Of a stretch of DNA of 64,000 bases, positions 27,920 to 58,449 are shown one piece after another; the first letter of the stretch is position 1, and each line of letters begins with the position of its first letter. Both the position numbers and the translations under genes were made by a program. This stretch comes from Reinekea marina (GTDB lineage Bacteria > Pseudomonadota > Gammaproteobacteria > Pseudomonadales > Natronospirillaceae). Below the pieces are notes generated by a model. That model was not told where the DNA came from. It made no database searches and was given only the letters and a program-made list of their open reading frames with translations. The stretch lies in NCBI RefSeq assembly GCF_030409715.1, contig NZ_JAUFQI010000001.1, positions 2,778,501 through 2,842,500 of the forward strand. Reading direction: 5' to 3'.

Positions 27920-27981
27920 CACACTTAACTCACCTTTTAATACACTGGTTTCAACACATGTAAACCATTTAGAGGTGAGTT

Positions 27982-28101
27982 ATGTATTTAGACATAATTG
28001 TATTATCTGGCATTGGTGTCGTTGGCTTAATGGTCGCTTTTTTAGTAGGTTTTTTCTATATATTGCGCAAAGAAGGCCATCGTAACGACCCCGAATGCTA
28101 G
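27982..28101 (+). CDS. 39-aa single-helix membrane protein, CcoM-like
   Basis: Small gene with a strong ribosome-binding site (AGAGGTGAG, 2 nt before the ATG). The product has a short N-terminus (MYLDII), one transmembrane helix of about 25 residues containing VGLMVAFLVGFFYI, and a basic-then-polar tail. Size, topology and the GLMVAF core resemble, from memory, CcoM, the small subunit found in the Pseudomonas stutzeri cbb3 oxidase. The near-perfect FNR/ANR box upstream and its place just after the oxygen regulator near the cco locus support a cbb3 role. It overlaps convergent nudC by 4 bp. Identification as CcoM is tentative. Confidence 0.65.
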   Translation: MYLDIIVLSGIGVVGLMVAFLVGFFYILRKEGHRNDPEC

Positions 28102-28904
28102 CCTAATCGCTCTTTTTTATAAGCTTGAATCAACCAACCCGCTATCGTCATTCCCGGTGAATGCTTTGGCAAATTGTTTAATTCAAAGAATTGAGCATCG
28201 GCAATTTCTCCCGGTGCAGGGGTAATGTCACCGCCATCGTATTCGGCCATGAACCCTAACATTAACTGATTAGGGAAGGGCCAAGTTTGACTGTTCATGT
28301 AGCGAATATTTTTTAACTGAACGCCAACTTCTTCAAACACTTCTCTTGCAACGGCTTGTTCGGCTGATTCGCCCGTTTCGATAAAGCCCGCCAACGTGCT
28401 GTACCAACCACTCTTTTTGTGTCGCTCACCTTGCGCCAACAACACCTTATCTCCATGAGTAACTAATACAATGATGCAAGGCGAAATTCTGGGATAAAAT
28501 CGCAAGCGACAAGGCTGACAGGTTAAAGCAAATTCAGTGGCAATTTGTTGAGTCGGCTGCCCACATTGCCCACAATACTGATGCTGGCTTTGCCAATCCA
28601 GCAACCCTTTAGCTCTTGATGCGAGAGAGAATAGCGTTTCACTTTTAGAAGCAACATCCCTAAGCCCCAACAGCTCAGTATTACCTGGACTGGTGACGTT
28701 GGCGCAATAATAAGGCTTTCCATCTAACAACCCTACAAACAGTTCAGAACTCGTTTTAAAGGGGTGGTTGTGAGCTGGCCAAACGACATTATTCTGATCA
28801 GCCAACAATTGCCCTTCGAACCAAAGTAACATTCGCCCTTGCTCGTCAATAGGACCTTTTCGAAACGGCAACTCGATCGTATGTTGACCAAACTCGTATA
28901 ACAT
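28098..28904 (-). CDS. nudC: NADH pyrophosphatase / NAD-capped RNA decapping hydrolase NudC
   Basis: Nudix hydrolase acting on NAD(H) and on NAD-capped RNA. A zinc ribbon with CGQCGQ and CQPC (about 110-135) precedes the Nudix box GFIETGESAEQAVAREVFEE (followed by VGV). After it, SQTWPFPNQLM corresponds to the SQPWPFPxS motif that defines the NADH-specific subfamily. At 268 aa it has normal length. It is convergent with the CcoM-like gene and lies 14 bp downstream of the acetyltransferase gene. Confidence 0.94.
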   Translation of the reverse strand: MLYEFGQHTIELPFRKGPIDEQGRMLLWFEGQLLADQNNVVWPAHNHPFKTSSELFVGLLDGKPYYCANVTSPGNTELLGLRDVASKSETLFSLASRAKGLLDWQSQHQYCGQCGQPTQQIATEFALTCQPCRLRFYPRISPCIIVLVTHGDKVLLAQGERHKKSGWYSTLAGFIETGESAEQAVAREVFEEVGVQLKNIRYMNSQTWPFPNQLMLGFMAEYDGGDITPAPGEIADAQFFELNNLPKHSPGMTIAGWLIQAYKKERLG

Positions 28905-36455: not shown

Positions 36456-36532
36456 TGGCGGAACGGACGAGACTCGAACTCGCGACCCCCGGCGTGACAG
36501 GCCGGTATTCTAACCAACTGAACTACCGCTCC
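36456..36532 (-). tRNA. tRNA-Asp (GUC), array copy 4 (distal)
   Basis: A 77-nt cloverleaf with acceptor stem GGAGCGG/CCGTTCC, anticodon loop CTGTCAC (anticodon GTC), T-arm GTTCGAGTC and encoded CCA. It is the last tRNA in the array in the direction of transcription and has no tRNA-Val partner next to it, unlike the other three aspartate copies. Confidence 0.97.
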
Positions 36533-36561
36533 AGGTAGTAATTTAAAGCCTTTCGGCTTGT

Positions 36562-36602
36562 TAAGTCGTCAAACTTAACGTTCCTTTTATACTTAGGAGA
36601 AG
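36562..36602. repeat. 41-bp spacer repeat of the tRNA array, unit 1
   Basis: The block begins TAAGTCGTCAAACTTAACG and ends ATACTTAGGAGAAG, directly abutting the CCA end of tRNA-Asp. Four near-identical copies lie at 36562, 36793, 37053 and 37165, differing by single bases. Unit 1 is flanked at 36545-36559 by an AAGCC/GGCTT hairpin with a GAAA tetraloop on the minus strand. Confidence 0.9.
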
Positions 36603-36679
36603 TGGCGGAACGGACGAGACTCGAACTCGCGACCCCCGGCGTGACAGGCCGGTATTCTAACCAACTGAACTACCGCTCC
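36603..36679 (-). tRNA. tRNA-Asp (GUC), array copy 3
   Basis: Same 77-nt aspartate tRNA with anticodon GTC and encoded CCA. It lies 6 bp downstream of a tRNA-Val in the transcript, giving a Val-Asp unit. Confidence 0.97.
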
Positions 36680-36685
36680 GCATTA

Positions 36686-36761
36686 TGGTGGGTGTGAACG
36701 GGTTCGAACCGCTGACCCTCGCCTTGTAAGGGCGATGCTCTCCCAACTGAGCTACACACCC
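36686..36761 (-). tRNA. tRNA-Val (UAC), array copy 3
   Basis: A 76-nt cloverleaf with acceptor stem GGGTGTG/CACACCC, anticodon loop CTTACAA (anticodon TAC), T-arm GTTCGAACC, discriminator A and encoded CCA. It is the promoter-proximal member of a Val-Asp pair. Confidence 0.97.
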
Positions 36762-36792
36762 ATAATGCTAAATTTAAAGCCTTTCGGCTTGC

Positions 36793-36833
36793 TAAGTCGT
36801 CAAACTTAACGTTCCTTTTATACTTAGGAAAAG
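36793..36833. repeat. 41-bp spacer repeat of the tRNA array, unit 2
   Basis: Second copy of the spacer block, ending in AGGAAAAG instead of AGGAGAAG. It is preceded by the AAGCC/GGCTT hairpin, as in unit 1, and abuts tRNA-Asp copy 2. Confidence 0.9.
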
Positions 36834-36910
36834 TGGCGGAACGGACGAGACTCGAACTCGCGACCCCCGGCGTGACAGGCCGGTATTCTAACCAACTGAA
36901 CTACCGCTCC
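36834..36910 (-). tRNA. tRNA-Asp (GUC), array copy 2
   Basis: Aspartate tRNA of 77 nt with anticodon GTC and encoded CCA, the same as the other copies over its visible length. Paired with the tRNA-Val 6 bp upstream in the transcript. Confidence 0.97.
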
Positions 36911-36916
36911 GCATTA

Positions 36917-36992
36917 TGGTGGGTGTGAACGGGTTCGAACCGCTGACCCTCGCCTTGTAAGGGCGATGCTCTCCCAACTGAGCTACACACCC
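36917..36992 (-). tRNA. tRNA-Val (UAC), array copy 2
   Basis: Valine tRNA of 76 nt with anticodon TAC and encoded CCA. The Val-Asp pair together with its spacer repeats the neighbouring unit almost base for base, a recent tandem duplication. Confidence 0.97.
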
Positions 36993-37021
36993 ATAATGCT
37001 AAATTTAAAGCCTTTCGGCTT

Positions 37022-37047
37022 GCGACCCTAAGCTCTGCTTTGGTCGC
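37022..37047. repeat. 26-nt hairpin insert in tRNA spacer, copy 1
   Basis: GCGACC (37022-37027) pairs with GGTCGC (37042-37047) around a 14-nt loop containing AAGCTCTGCTTT. It lies between the AAGCC/GGCTT hairpin and the 41-bp spacer block, a position where units 1 and 2 have no such insert. A second copy is at 37134. Confidence 0.75.
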
Positions 37048-37052
37048 AGTGT

Positions 37053-37093
37053 TAAGTCGTCAAACTTAACGCTCCTTTTATACTTAGGAGAAG
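37053..37093. repeat. 41-bp spacer repeat of the tRNA array, unit 3
   Basis: Third copy of the spacer block, with CGCTCC in place of CGTTCC. It abuts the truncated tRNA-Asp relic instead of an intact gene. Confidence 0.9.
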
Positions 37094-37111
37094 TGGCGGA
37101 ACGGACGAGAC
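37094..37111 (-). pseudogene. truncated tRNA-Asp relic
   Basis: Eighteen bases are identical to the 3' end of tRNA-Asp: CCA, the 3' acceptor strand and the start of the T-arm. After 37111 the sequence departs completely and the rest of the tRNA is missing. The preceding 41-bp spacer block is intact, so this is the stump of a fifth aspartate unit whose body, and its valine partner, were lost. The following 22 bp (37112-37133) are GC-rich and match nothing else in the array. Confidence 0.88.
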
Positions 37112-37133
37112 CGATGGTCCGGCATCCCGGCTT

Positions 37134-37159
37134 GCGATCCGAAGCTCTGCTTTGGTCGC
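37134..37159. repeat. 26-nt hairpin insert in tRNA spacer, copy 2
   Basis: GCGATC (37134-37139) faces GGTCGC (37154-37159), with the same loop core AAGCTCTGCTTT as copy 1. The C-to-T change in the left arm keeps a G-U pair, so the hairpin survives in RNA. Confidence 0.75.
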
Positions 37160-37164
37160 GATGC

Positions 37165-37205
37165 TAAGTCGTCAAACTTAACGCTCCTTTTATACTTAGG
37201 AGAAG
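37165..37205. repeat. 41-bp spacer repeat of the tRNA array, unit 4
   Basis: Fourth spacer block, same CGCTCC variant as unit 3, abutting the promoter-proximal tRNA-Asp. Shared variants between units 3 and 4 suggest they arose from one duplication. Confidence 0.9.
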
Positions 37206-37282
37206 TGGCGGAACGGACGAGACTCGAACTCGCGACCCCCGGCGTGACAGGCCGGTATTCTAACCAACTGAACTACCGCTCC
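37206..37282 (-). tRNA. tRNA-Asp (GUC), array copy 1
   Basis: Aspartate tRNA of 77 nt with anticodon GTC and encoded CCA. It is the first aspartate gene in the transcript, 6 bp after tRNA-Val copy 1. Confidence 0.97.
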
Positions 37283-37288
37283 GCATTA

Positions 37289-37364
37289 TGGTGGGTGTGA
37301 ACGGGTTCGAACCGCTGACCCTCGCCTTGTAAGGGCGATGCTCTCCCAACTGAGCTACACACCC
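37289..37364 (-). tRNA. tRNA-Val (UAC), array copy 1 (proximal)
   Basis: Valine tRNA of 76 nt with anticodon TAC and encoded CCA. It is the first gene of the array, about 50 bp downstream of a strong promoter at 37422-37449. Confidence 0.97.
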
Positions 37365-48240: not shown

Positions 48241-48317
48241 TGGCGCGCCCGGCACGATTCGAACGTGCGACCGCCTGGTTCGTAGCCAGGTACTCTATCC
48301 AGCTGAGCTACGGGCGC
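48241..48317 (-). tRNA. tRNA-Arg (ACG), copy 2
   Basis: A 77-nt cloverleaf with acceptor stem GCGCCCG/CGGGCGC, anticodon loop CTACGAA (anticodon ACG, presumably edited to ICG by TadA), T-arm GTTCGAATC and encoded CCA. The same gene lies 40 bp upstream. The csrA-tRNA-Ser-tRNA-Arg order is conserved among gammaproteobacteria. Confidence 0.97.
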
Positions 48318-48357
48318 GCAAGGCATTAACACAGTTATACTCCGGTTAATAAGGAGT

Positions 48358-48434
48358 TGGCGCGCCCGGCACGATTCGAACGTGCGACCGCCTGGTTCGT
48401 AGCCAGGTACTCTATCCAGCTGAGCTACGGGCGC
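48358..48434 (-). tRNA. tRNA-Arg (ACG), copy 1
   Basis: Arginine tRNA of 77 nt with anticodon ACG and encoded CCA, apparently the same as copy 2. It lies 46 bp downstream of tRNA-Ser in the transcript. Confidence 0.97.
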
Positions 48435-48480
48435 GTACTTCTTGAGTTGCCTACCAACATTAAAGAAACTTTAATGTTGA

Positions 48481-48570
48481 TGGCGGAGAGTGAGGGATTC
48501 GAACCCTCGATAAGATTTCTCCTATACGCCCTTAGCAGGGGCGCGCCTTCAGCCACTCGGCCAACTCTCC
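48481..48570 (-). tRNA. tRNA-Ser (GCU)
   Basis: A 90-nt class II tRNA with acceptor stem GGAGAGT/ACTCTCC, anticodon loop CTGCTAA (anticodon GCT), a long variable arm and encoded CCA. A TAATAT -10 followed by a GC-rich discriminator (GCGCGCC) lies at 48585-48590 upstream, though the -35 is weak. Confidence 0.97.
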
Positions 48571-48686: not shown

Positions 48687-48878
48687 TTACTCGTCGTCTT
48701 GTTCAGGAGAGCCTATTTCGCGCTGGATACGTTGATAGATCTCTTCACGGTGCACAGCTACGTCTTTTGGCGCATTGACACCAATACGCACTTGATTCCC
48801 TTTTACACCCAATACAGTAACAGTAACTTCATCACCGATCATCAGTGTTTCGCCAACTCGACGGGTTAAAATTAACAT
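48687..48878 (-). CDS. csrA: carbon storage regulator CsrA (RsmA)
   Basis: Dimeric RNA-binding protein that controls translation by binding GGA motifs in hairpin loops. The start [28 protein letters not shown] region is canonical; the ATG at 48878 has AGGAG upstream, so the 23 extra codons open in this frame are excluded, giving 63 aa. The RNA-contact segments LTRRVGE and [10 protein letters not shown] are intact. It lies between lysC and tRNA-Ser, as is usual. Possible titrating RNA elements with GGA loops lie 6.5 kb away at 55.4-55.6 kb. Confidence 0.96.
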
Positions 48879-54785: not shown

Positions 54786-55247
54786 TTATCGCAAATAAAG
54801 CGTAAGCTGCTCCAATGCGAACTCAACCGTTTGACGGCGAATGGTTTCACGATCTCCTCTAAAGTAGCGTTTAAAGCTATAAACAGCCGATTTAGACGCA
54901 AGACCAAACCACACCAGCCCAACAGGCTTTTCAACACTTCCACCTCCCGGTCCAGCAACGCCAGTCACAGAAATTGCCCAATCGGCACCTGATTCTGCTT
55001 GCCCACTGGCCGCCATAGCCTCTGCCACTTGCTTACTTACCGCGCCATGATCATCAATCAAAACCCTTGGAACGCCTAGCTTCATCTTCATTTCATTCGA
55101 ATAGGTCACCCAGCCACCGTCAAACCAAACTGAGCTACCCGGAATAGAAGTACACAAAGCGGCTATACCGCCACCCGTACAGGATTCGATGGTCACTAAA
55201 GTCTCATTTCTGAGCTCCAGCAACCTAGCCACTTCACTGAGGTTCAT
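54786..55247 (-). CDS. pncC: nicotinamide-nucleotide amidase PncC (CinA C-terminal family)
   Basis: Deamidates nicotinamide mononucleotide for NAD recycling. Family signatures are TIESCTGGGIAALCTSIPGSS (with the catalytic Ser in ESCTGG), GGWVTYSNEMKMKLGVP, GAVSKQVAEAMA and SVTGVAGPGGGSVEKPVG. At 153 aa it is the stand-alone CinA C-terminal domain. It lies directly upstream of recA, as in many gammaproteobacteria, and its 3' end borders the recA promoter. Confidence 0.95.
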   Translation of the reverse strand: MNLSEVARLLELRNETLVTIESCTGGGIAALCTSIPGSSVWFDGGWVTYSNEMKMKLGVPRVLIDDHGAVSKQVAEAMAASGQAESGADWAISVTGVAGPGGGSVEKPVGLVWFGLASKSAVYSFKRYFRGDRETIRRQTVEFALEQLTLYLR

Positions 55248-55329
55248 CGCATGTACTCCGATTGTTTGTGGTGATTTTAGCGGCCTTGGTTATGGAGCTG
55301 CAAGTTATTAGCTGCAAGCTGATAGTAAG

Positions 55330-55465
55330 GTCAAAACCTTTAAACCGTCGCGGCTTCGCTTTGGTGGGTGGCTTTACTGGAGCGGGCATCTGAGCCAGGG
55401 ATGGCGAAGTTGAGCGGCGCAAGGATGCGCGAACAGCGACCCGCGGAAGTGAAGCCAGTCACCAA
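55330..55465 (+). repeat. structured repeat with GGA-loop hairpins, copy A
   Basis: Begins GTCAAAACCTTTAAACCGTC. An 18-nt imperfect outer stem (55361-55378 with 55448-55465) encloses an inner GCGGG/CCCGC stem (55382-55386 with 55440-55444) and two hairpins: GCC-AGGGAT-GGC (55394-55405) and GCGC-AAGGAT-GCGC (55417-55430). Only the plus-strand RNA places A(A/G)GGAT in the loops, the ANGGA core recognised by CsrA/RsmA. It may be a non-coding RNA or a mobile intergenic repeat. No promoter is obvious. Confidence 0.7.
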
Positions 55466-55517
55466 GGCGGAAACTTATATCCGAGGTTTTGGCTGTAGGC
55501 TGCGGGCTGCGAGTTTA

Positions 55518-55679
55518 GTCAAAACATTTAAAACCGTCGCGGCTTCGCTTTGCTTTGCGCGCTTCTACTTAGGCTTGGTGGGTGGCATTTCTGGAGCGGG
55601 CATCTGAGCCAAGGATGGCGAAGTTGAGCGGTGTAGGGATGCGCGAACCGCGATCTGATGAAGTGAAGGCAGCCACCGA
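55518..55679 (+). repeat. structured repeat with GGA-loop hairpins, copy B
   Basis: Second copy, starting GTCAAAACATTTAAAACCGTC, with an extra stretch of about 24 bp (from about 55551) not in copy A. The outer stem (55575-55592 with 55662-55679) is weaker. Hairpins are GCC-AAGGAT-GGC (55608-55619) and GTGT-AGGGAT-GCGC (55631-55644). The second has two base changes from copy A that both keep G-U pairs. Loop sequences switch between AGGGAT and AAGGAT yet keep GGA. Confidence 0.7.
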
Positions 55680-55821
55680 GGTTGGTTTGGAGAGGGTTGT
55701 CGTTGATTGTTTTTCGTTTTAGGTGGAAATTTGCTATTCTGTGCGCCGCTTTTGACTTTGTAAATTTAGGCGACTCTATTCAATATTCAGGTTTGAATTC
55801 ATTTTTTTATAAGTAGTGATC

Positions 55822-58449
55822 ATGACAAAAACAGCTCGTAACGCCCAAGCATCTGCCAGTGACGCACCAAAACATACGCCAATGATGCAACAATACTTCC
55901 GCTTAAAAAAGGATCACCCAAATGACCTCCTTTTTTATAGAATGGGCGATTTCTACGAACTGTTTTTTGACGATGCTAAAAATGCGGCTCGGTTACTCGA
56001 CATTACACTGACAAAGCGCGGCCAAAGTGGTGGTCAACCTATCCCTATGGCTGGCATTCCCTATCATGCCGCTGAGAATTACATCGCCAGATTAGTGCAA
56101 GGTGGGCACACCGTTGCGGTGTGTGAGCAAGTTGGAGACCCAGCCACAGCAAAAGGTCCTGTAGAGCGCAAAGTAGTTCGCGTACTCACACCGGGCACAC
56201 TCAGCGACGAAGCTTATTTGCAGGATCGGCAAGAAAACTTATTAGGCTGTGTCTTTTTAAGCGAAGCAACTTGGGGGCTAGCGACGCTTGATATGGCCGG
56301 GGGACGGTTTTCTGTACAAGAACTATCAGACAACGCCAGTTTAGAAGCCGAATTAGAACGCTTAAAAATACGTGAGTTGCTTCACCCAGAAGACTTAGAC
56401 CTACCAACTACTCAGACTGAAAGCGCATTGCGCAGCCAACCCATCTGGCAGTTTGACTACGACACAAGTGTAGATGCCCTAACCACTCAATTTAAAACCA
56501 AAGACTTATCCGGCTTTGGTATTGAAAAAATGCATACCGCCATTCGTGCGGCTGGCTGCTTAATACAATACGCCAAAGAAACACAACGAGGCGACCTGCC
56601 GCATATTCGCGCCATAACCGCAGAGCGCTACGAAGAAAGCGTATTGTTAGATGGCGCGACGCGACGAAATTTAGAAATCGATATTAATGTTCGCGGCGAA
56701 GATGGCAATACCCTTTACGCCCTAATGGACAACACTTCAACTGCAATGGGAAGCCGAGCGTTAAGACGTTGGTTAAATCGCCCGTTGCGTGATCAGCAAG
56801 TGCTAAAAGAACGACAACAGGCCATTAGCTCACTGCTCGAATGTTTTCGTTACGAAACACTCGAACAACAACTCAAACCTATTGGCGATATTGAACGGGT
56901 TTTGACTCGAGTTGCACTTGGTTCCGCTCGCCCACGCGACCTAATTCGACTGCGCGAAGCACTGATAGCCGTGCCCGATCTAAAATCATTATTAGCGGAG
57001 ATAGACTCCCCTCTTTTAACCAATATCAGTGGACAGTTAACGGCCGACTCAAAATGGGTAGACGAACTTCAGCGGGCCATAATCGATAATCCGCCAGTCA
57101 TCATCAGAGAAGGCGGGGTTATTGCCGATGGTTATGATAACGAGCTAGATGAACTGCGTAACTTAGACGCCAATGCAGCTGAGTTTTTATCAAAACTGGA
57201 AGCCGACGAAAAAGAACGAACCGGATTAGCCTCTTTAAAAGTCGGTTATAACCGTGTTCACGGTTACTACATAGAAATCAGTAAATCGCAATCGGCTGAC
57301 GCGCCCGTTGAATATGTTCGTAGGCAAACTCTGAAAAACGCAGAACGTTTCATTATTCCCGAGTTAAAAGCATTCGAAGACAAAGCTCTCAGTGCAAAAA
57401 GCCGAGCACTCAGCAAAGAAAAAGCCTTGTACGAATCTCTCGTCCAACGACTAGGGGCCGACATAGAAGCATTGCAGCAGACCTGTAATGCCATCATAGA
57501 GTTAGACGTTTTATGTTGCTTAAGCCATTGTGCTGATCAACTAAACTGGGTGGCCCCTTCTTTGGTAGAGCGCGCTGGTATTGATATTGAAGCCGGTAGA
57601 CACCCTGTCATTGAATCACTTTCGACGGTACCTTTCGTGCCGAATGATACATTACTCAACGCAAGCTCTAGCTTGCAAATCATTACCGGGCCAAACATGG
57701 GCGGTAAATCAACCTATATGAGGCAAGTCGCCTTAATAACCTTACTGGCTTGTATTGGCAGTTACGTGCCTGCGCAAAAAGCAACAATTGGCGCAATAGA
57801 CCGCATATTCACCCGCATGGGCTCTTCAGATGATGTGGCTGGCGGGCGCTCAACGTTCATGGTGGAAATGACCGAAACAGCCAATATTTTGCACAATGCT
57901 ACACAAAATAGCTTAGTGATCATGGATGAAGTTGGTCGCGGCACCAGTACTTTTGATGGCTTATCTTTAGCTTGGTCAACAGCAACTCAATTAGTCAGCC
58001 AAGTAAAAGCCCTAACTTTGTTTGCGACGCATTATTTTGAAATGACCGCCTTAGCAGAGGCTAATCCAGAAGTCGCAAACGTGCACCTGGATGCGACCGA
58101 ACATGATGATAGGCTGGTGTTTTTACATCGAGTGCAACCAGGGCCTGCTAGCCAAAGCTATGGTATTCAAGTAGCCCGATTAGCTGGCGTCCCAGAATCT
58201 GTCATCAGCCACGCTAAGCAAAAACTCGCTGAGTTAGAAGCGATCAGTTTAGGTACAGAACACGCGCCGAAAGCTTTAGAGGCTGACAGCTCACATTCGC
58301 CTAGCCAACCAGCAGCAGGTCCTATGCAAGCCGATCTCTTTGCTGTATCAGCGCACCCGTTAGTCGATGCACTGCAGTCATTGGAGCTCGACAACATGAC
58401 AGCAAAACAGGCACTAGACTGGTTGTACGAAAGCAAAAAACGGCTATAG
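55822..58449 (+). CDS. mutS: DNA mismatch repair protein MutS
   Basis: Mismatch recognition ATPase. The mismatch-binding Phe-x-Glu motif lies in [12 protein letters not shown] (N-terminal). The ATPase has Walker [14 protein letters not shown], Walker [21 protein letters not shown] and a helix-turn-helix dimer end. A C-terminal extension of about 50 residues ends with [13 protein letters not shown], the tetramerisation/beta-clamp area. The ATG at 55822 (875 aa) is chosen; a GTG two codons upstream is possible. It is followed by fdxA and rpoS, as in Pseudomonas. Confidence 0.97.

Follow-up and report, generated by a model that had tools for sequence, protein, structure and literature searches.

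Dispersed repeats with paired GGA-loop hairpins between pncC and mutS of Reinekea marina, candidate MITE-like elements related to TwoAYGGAY

CsrA/RsmA is a global RNA regulator. In the available excerpt of PMC7652899, the CsrA dimer is described as having two RNA-binding surfaces, its SELEX consensus is given as RUACARGGAUGU in hairpins of mostly no more than 4 pairs, the CsrB repeats are CAGGA(U/A/C)G and the RsmE site is an ANGGAN hexaloop; the CsrA antagonist described there for the firmicute B. subtilis is a protein, FliW. As of 2014, CsrA-titrating sRNAs had been identified solely in Gammaproteobacteria, according to the accessible section of PMC4333381, which also presents TwoAYGGAY, a motif with tandem GAs in one stem, as proposed to bind CsrA. 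The same motif is listed for the human gut, gammaproteobacteria and Clostridiales and is rated as probably an RNA (PMC2864571, in part), and it stands among the families with improved structures (PMC11701678, in part). In E. coli, several nearly identical loci that contain GGA sites give rise to the RNAs RrA, RrB and RrF, which are encoded between the two terminators of rRNA operons; RrB binds CsrA in vitro (PMC8144298, excerpt). CsrA was weighed for a different repeat and judged unlikely in the consulted passage of PMC4679880. Among the titles and abstract openings of the open-access literature, none was found that describes TwoAYGGAY or the repeats considered here as mobile or multi-copy CsrA-type elements.

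The repeats in question lie in the spacer between a pncC-like gene and mutS within the window, i.e., the whole analyzed stretch of 64,000 nucleotides. By a narrow balance of judgement, and from sequence comparison, we favor the explanation that they are non-autonomous MITE-like mobile elements of the TwoAYGGAY kind that would carry a portable dock for the CsrA dimer.

Structure of the repeats at the pncC–mutS locus

A preliminary description had claimed two structured tandem copies at this place. Sequence comparison within the window revealed a 114-nt direct repeat (55354–55467 and 55568–55681) with an identity of 85%, and the genome BLAST matches and covariation reported below place the two copies beyond chance. 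The features of the locus, together with the csrA match of the same window, were as follows:

48723..48878 (C1:2827223-2827378), minus strand: csrA domain match (PF02599, 91.4 bits; the single PF02599 match in the genome)
54786..55247, minus strand: pncC-like gene, divergent from mutS (open reading frame list; name from the preliminary description)
55330..55353, plus strand: leader ahead of copy 1, running straight into the outer stem (sequence; alignment of array leaders)
55355..55473, plus strand: element copy 1, with outer stem, inner stem and two GGA hairpins (R1 match L055:2356-2474, 130.5 bits; MFE -65.9 kcal/mol)
55394..55405, plus strand: copy 1 hairpin 1, GCC-AGGGAT-GGC, with flanks TGA/GAA (sequence; column conservation)
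55417..55430, plus strand: copy 1 hairpin 2, GCGC-AAGGAT-GCGC (sequence)
55518..55568, plus strand: leader ahead of copy 2 (sequence; alignment of array leaders)
55569..55687, plus strand: element copy 2, part of its outer stem apparently decayed (R1 match L055:2570-2688, 85.4 bits; MFE -46.2 kcal/mol)
55608..55619, plus strand: copy 2 hairpin 1, GCC-AAGGAT-GGC (sequence)
55631..55644, plus strand: copy 2 hairpin 2, GTGT-AGGGAT-GCGC with G-U pairs (sequence)
55822..58449, plus strand: mutS (open reading frame list; name from the preliminary description)

The structured unit was about 119 nt long in both copies, and the GGA of the loops was located at positions 55399 and 55423 in copy 1 and at 55613 and 55637 in copy 2. 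All four loops consisted of six bases, AGGGAT or AAGGAT, as had been read earlier, and the change of the second hairpin from GCGC/GCGC in copy 1 to GTGT/GCGC in copy 2, still paired through G-U, was confirmed. The TGA/GAA flanks of the first hairpin of copy 1 possibly form tandem G.A pairs. It had also been stated that the copies share a leader and a fold; the leader GTCAAAAC...AAACCGTCGCGG, starting at 55330 and 55518, was indeed common to both, and it is not part of the fold. The reverse complement of the leader of copy 2 (55518..55568) appears to resemble REP sequences of pseudomonads. The array is flanked at 55296–55323 and 55493–55512 by short AGCTGCAAG / GCTGCGGG repeats, which also accompany many other copies.

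The fold of copy 1 was more stable than that of shuffled sequences (z = -4.0; 1 of 200 shuffles equally good). For copy 2, no excess stability was found when it was considered alone (z = -0.45; 55 of 200 shuffles equally good); changes in part of the outer stem are the apparent cause, and this copy looks partly decayed. At the gathering level, a search of the entire window against Rfam gave nothing at the repeats. The PF02599 match confirmed csrA at about 6.5 kb from the array. Elsewhere in the window, a borderline match to PhrS (38.2 bits, threshold 37) was observed at 27949–28121 on the plus strand, along with repeated tRNA genes, all on the minus strand: an Asp/Val cluster at 36456–37364, an Arg pair with Ser at 48241–48570 and a Lys pair at 2558–2784.

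High copy number in the genome and empty sites in relatives

BLASTn with 55330–55500 as a query yielded 72 matches in the 3.70-Mb genome of the same strain, some of them to the leader only, which indicates a dispersed family. An iterated profile search, performed after 30 regions of this genome had been fetched, gave 70 non-overlapping rows, eight of which were halves of four copies split by insertion sequences, so that the fetched regions contained 66 copies. Indels kept the outer stem from being recovered in a plain MAFFT alignment of 31 copies analyzed with RNAalifold; a seed alignment of 16 copies was used in its place, and the covariance model R1 was built from it. With R1, at least 62 matches were obtained in the genome (best 64 of 1399 candidates scored), and the 59 matches listed stood at 59 separate places. 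Matches to R1 were present in 15 of the 57 genomes of the same order, the genome under study included, and one genome had at least 64.

When the 70 rows, including the halves of split copies, were grouped at gaps of less than 500 bp, they formed 41 clusters, of which 21 had a single row, 13 had two rows, 5 had three and 2 had four. Predicted open reading frames of at least 100, 200 and 300 aa wholly contained 9, 3 and 0 of the 70 rows, respectively. The orientation of the clusters relative to neighboring genes was even (11/11/8/7 of 37 clusters, omitting three mixed-strand clusters, one without both neighbors, and cluster-overlapping ORFs shorter than 300 aa), and no gene-orientation bias was thus found among these 37 clusters.

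Several arrangements were observed among the dispersed copies. In four copies, an insertion sequence interrupts the second hairpin, always at the same position. These insertion sequences are nearly identical (98.6–99.6%), and the frame of one of them matched PF01548 and PF02371, both models of IS110 transposases; REP and attC are known targets of IS1111/IS110-type elements (PMC11187229, in part). The interrupted copies in the genome under study (G000, contig C1) were as follows:

C1:987629-989147: copy interrupted by an insertion sequence
C1:1225491-1227013: copy interrupted by an insertion sequence
C1:2537925-2539412: copy interrupted by an insertion sequence
C1:2755570-2757089: copy interrupted by an insertion sequence

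Elements were also located downstream of all five 5S rRNA genes present in the fetched regions (L037, L038, L043, L048 and L050), as a close minus-then-plus pair in three cases, 1.6 kb apart in L048 and as a single plus-strand copy in L050. Terminator-like sites lie between the 5S gene and the elements at L037. Neither a rule linking the elements to rRNA operons nor co-transcription is claimed, because the regions were picked for holding elements and because of the terminator-like sites at L037. Close head-to-head inverted pairs, with the 5' ends facing, were found in several genomes, the one under study included, for example:

G014:C44:77931-78319: head-to-head pair
G018 (S. salsuginis):C2:349453-349820: head-to-head pair
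G076 (Lachnospiraceae):C47:139778-140356: head-to-head pair

The corresponding loci of relatives were found with the pncC-like protein and the first 140 residues of mutS as queries. No match to the covariance model was detected at the pncC locus of 22 relatives (0 of 22), of which 16 also had mutS, so that the empty site expected of a MITE insertion was seen. The pncC–mutS spacer was 574 bp in the window. For the 16 relatives in which both genes were seen, gene starts extrapolated from alignments put it at 45–94 bp in 11 and at 185, 219, 237, 508 and 897 bp in the other five; among the five relatives of the same genus, it was 45–62 bp in four and 897 bp in one. As judged from these sequences, the simplest reading is that the window elements were inserted in this lineage.

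These data bear on the suggestion that the locus encodes a small Csr sponge. A stretch of about 250 nt with four GGA hairpins on the same strand and the presence of csrA in the genome would suit a dedicated CsrB/RsmY-like sponge sRNA gene, which we nevertheless consider very improbable: a scan for sigma-70-like promoters over 55200–55830 gave no match on the plus strand and two on the minus strand, copy 2 is apparently decayed, about 60 similar copies lie elsewhere in the genome with clusters of even orientation, and the pncC–mutS locus of the relatives gave no match. Thus, of the interpretations offered in the preliminary description, the local sponge gained no support, whereas a family of mobile intergenic elements is supported by high copy number and empty relative loci, jointly with a relationship to TwoAYGGAY that is considered below.

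Strand-specific pairing and the GGA loops

Pairing was assessed in an alignment (A4) of matches up to E = 1e-8 from 77 loci, this limit being used because antisense matches of the palindromic elements (best 41.7 bits) had to be removed. Its 120 rows (61 from the genome under study, 25 from R. forsetii, 16 from S. salsuginis loci and 18 others; two rows were cut by the end of a locus) gave 116 distinct gammaproteobacterial copies, identical rows being counted once. Of the 3505 pair cells in these copies, 96.4% were paired, and 30 of the 31 pairs varied on both sides; in the outermost helix, this applied to all 10 pairs, with 95.1% of cells paired. Fitting A4 to the covariance model biases it toward pairing, but the margin over slid controls was large, since pairing fell to only 35–43% when the partner was moved by 1–3 columns. 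G-U/U-G cells numbered 275 versus 19 for A-C/C-A cells (120 versus 4 for G-U and A-C with one copy per locus), and G-U was in excess in 55 of 62 loci and A-C in none of the 62. Because a G-U pair reads as A-C on the complementary strand, the structure functions as a single strand of plus sense. Copies from Clostridia (35 of 39 fetched loci) behaved in the same manner: 34 of 35 folded better in the sense direction, in which two GGA hairpin loops were present in 29, one in 5 and none in 1, compared with 0 in antisense.

The proposal of selection, originally drawn from the two window copies, is thereby supported far beyond them at the level of a single strand of this sense. The simplest reading of single-strand function is RNA, a single DNA strand being the alternative. 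In the latter case, a single-strand transposase would act on the hairpin of one DNA strand, much as RAYTs act on REP sequences, and the folds would serve transposition only. Strand-specific pairing would fit one DNA strand equally well, the leaders contain an apparently REP-like repeat, and an IS110-type element targets the second hairpin. However, the Y1 (RAYT) transposase model PF01797 had no match in the genome under study, leaving an origin from RAYTs without support; strongly diverged copies stay paired through two-sided changes, many of them to G-U; and the vehicle in one Lachnospiraceae genome is an element with terminal inverted repeats. A purely DNA-level role is accordingly judged improbable. 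There is good support for a dispersed repeat family that is structured as a single strand, keeps its paired GGA loops nearly constant and has no copy at this site in relatives.

In the 116 copies, loop 1 was AUGGAU in 90, AGGGAU in 8 and AAGGAU in 6, whereas loop 2 took the form AUGGAU in 38 and that of a pentaloop, AGGAU, in 29. GGA was kept in both loops of 106 copies and was absent from one or both in 10. The commonest loop of the family was ATGGAT, unlike the AGGGAT and AAGGAT of the window. In both loops, the most variable position was the base before GGA, the N of ANGGAN, so that the variation seen at this base in the window extends to the family. The distance from GGA to GGA within a unit was 20–21 nt. 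Junction positions (UGA, GAA, AGCG and GCGA) were about as conserved as the loops, which is not explained by CsrA alone, as CsrA would not need those bases. In Clostridia, the hairpins were often long and some loops were without GGA, unlike the short SELEX hairpins.

The paired loops of the family mostly keep to A-N-GGA-U or A-GGA-U, the published types of CsrA site, and docking of CsrA by the element is likely on this sequence evidence. In the MITE-like explanation favored here, the plus-strand RNA would form a long outer stem that caps a pair of short hairpins, each with a C-(ANGGAU)-G loop, the GGAs about 21 nt apart; each transcribed copy would most likely offer its pair of sites to one CsrA dimer, the portable dock could place neighboring transcripts under CsrA, and many copies, summed, could compete for it. 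Transcription, CsrA binding, an effect on genes and a mobilizing enzyme are the parts that we infer in this explanation.

Relation to TwoAYGGAY and other known systems

TwoAYGGAY (RF01731, clan CL00106) has the same long variable outer stem around two GGA-loop hairpins, and a 21-nt core, ATCTGAGCCANGGATGGCGAA, is exactly common to the window family and to copies from Lachnospiraceae. Exact matches to this core occurred in 68 stretches of named genomes, the carriers being Reinekea forsetii, R. marinisedimentorum, Saccharospirillum salsuginis, several Lachnospiraceae and Desulforadius tongensis. The S. salsuginis copies had near-perfect outer stems that differed between copies. In Lachnospiraceae bacterium B84_9_MI_BP, 20 copies were aligned, and their similarity ended outside the terminal inverted repeats GGATTCGGGTGTCAAAAGGT...ACCTTTTGACACCTGAATCC; the unit is MITE-like, of about 310 bp, and one copy (L104) matched RF01731 with 107 bits. 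Shortness, multiple copies and terminal inverted repeats, which are traits of MITEs, were thus found both in this unit and in the genome under study, where the outer ends of the copies are paired and at least 62 matches occur. Other elements, very different in sequence, show this design too: a pair of GGA hairpins enclosed by a long stem that varies.

The loops of TwoAYGGAY are AYGGAY, whereas those of the window are ARGGAU; the family consensus AUGGAU fits AYGGAY. The RF01731 model gave no match to 55300–55720 at E values up to 10 and, at E = 0.001, none among the best 40 of 104 candidates in the genome under study; the best score among the eight loci of this genome that were scanned was 30.6 bits against a gathering threshold of 43, and the S. 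salsuginis loci scanned also scored below the cut-off. At E = 0.001, RF01731 was matched in 13 of the 57 genomes of the same order, 7 of them over the cut-off, with 22 matches in one genome. In many carriers among Lachnospiraceae, TwoAYGGAY was multi-copy (best nine candidates per genome scored). The TGA/GAA-flanked hairpin stands first in the window and second in L104 (Rfam alignment). Because the model scores lie below the cut-off and the hairpin order is reversed relative to L104, the window family, with its variable outer stem, is best regarded from its sequence as TwoAYGGAY-like and not as a member; the earlier suggestion of a GGA-hairpin motif related to, and not identical with, TwoAYGGAY agrees with the shared core and the missed RF01731 threshold. 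The preliminary interpretation is therefore supported as regards the TwoAYGGAY-related motif and the mobile family and not supported as regards the local sponge.

In predictions from a simple ORF caller, the following gene had the same direction as the element in 8 of 9 S. salsuginis copies; in Lachnospiraceae, the preceding gene was opposite in 16 of 22 copies and the following gene was in the same direction in 13 of 22. The numbers are small and point to no common position. No clear leader role emerges, because of these Lachnospiraceae counts and the even orientation in the genome under study.

The csrA gene was present in 12 of 12 named carrier genomes. In a sample of 299 Lachnospiraceae genomes drawn evenly, csrA was detected in 154 (152 over the cut-off) and TwoAYGGAY in 45 (43 over the cut-off); 44 of the 45 carriers had csrA compared with 110 of 254 non-carriers (p = 1.7e-13, shared ancestry uncorrected). 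A class sample of 391 genomes gave a similar picture, with csrA in 31 of 36 carriers (27 of the 36 over the Rfam cut-off) compared with 94 of the remaining 355 genomes (p = 2.2e-12, shared ancestry uncorrected), or in 25 of 30 carriers and 91 of 352 others after removal of the nine genomes present in both samples. No csrA match was obtained in 5 of the 36 carriers (4 of the 27 over the cut-off); since these are many-contig assemblies, the gene may be missing from the assembly only. Among 19 loci of these five genomes, no decay of the GGA loops was found except in one loop of one copy. The flagellar control gene flhA was found in 155 of the 299 Lachnospiraceae genomes, 151 of which also had csrA; every one of the 45 carriers had flhA, even the single csrA-negative one. 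Because flhA follows the same pattern, csrA is not separable from motility as a correlate.

This bears on another explanation, according to which the repeat is mobile and structured and some protein other than CsrA, e.g., one required for the spread of the repeat, reads its tip as RNA; CsrA would then play no part, and the link to csrA would reflect motile lineages. In agreement with it, the junction is conserved about as well as the loops, flhA tracks the carriers as well as csrA does, five class-sample carriers gave no csrA match and the element is plainly dispersed. On the other hand, the most variable loop base is the N of ANGGAN, as in CsrA sites, and paired GGA hairpins are common to elements of quite different sequence; we know of no candidate for such a protein. 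We regard this explanation as unlikely, although less so than a purely DNA-level role, and retain the MITE-like element with a CsrA dock. As a tentative extension, to which we give somewhat less than even credence, TwoAYGGAY and its relatives may be a cross-phylum class of mobile elements with a paired CsrA dock as cargo, in which different vehicles would have carried the same two-hairpin module; they would persist in bacteria with csrA for one of two reasons: CsrA binding would render an insertion tolerable, or the hosts would exploit the copies, whether to extend CsrA control or to buffer CsrA.

Should each genome indeed have dozens of mobile elements with CsrA docks, their jumping could rewire the targets of CsrA and alter its free level. 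The CsrA-dock reading, if true, would moreover define TwoAYGGAY, an orphan Rfam family, as mobile and multi-copy and supply it with a partner that can be tested, both in Gammaproteobacteria and in Clostridia.

Compared with the CsrB, CsrC and RsmX/Y/Z sponges, the array appears alike in having several GGA hairpins on one strand, with loops of the CAGGAUG/ANGGAN type. Unlike them, the window element is dispersed and multi-copy, has two sites per unit and no plus-strand promoter match, and occupies a locus that is empty in relatives. RrA, RrB and RrF of E. coli are comparable in their multiple, closely similar loci with GGA sites, but they sit in rRNA operons, whereas the elements of the window family are scattered. 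REP/BIME and MITE repeats are, like the window family as far as its predicted reading frames indicate, mostly intergenic; both are of high copy number, palindromic, arranged in tandem or inverted pairs and targets of IS110-type elements; unlike them, the window family has an asymmetric conserved tip with paired GGA loops.
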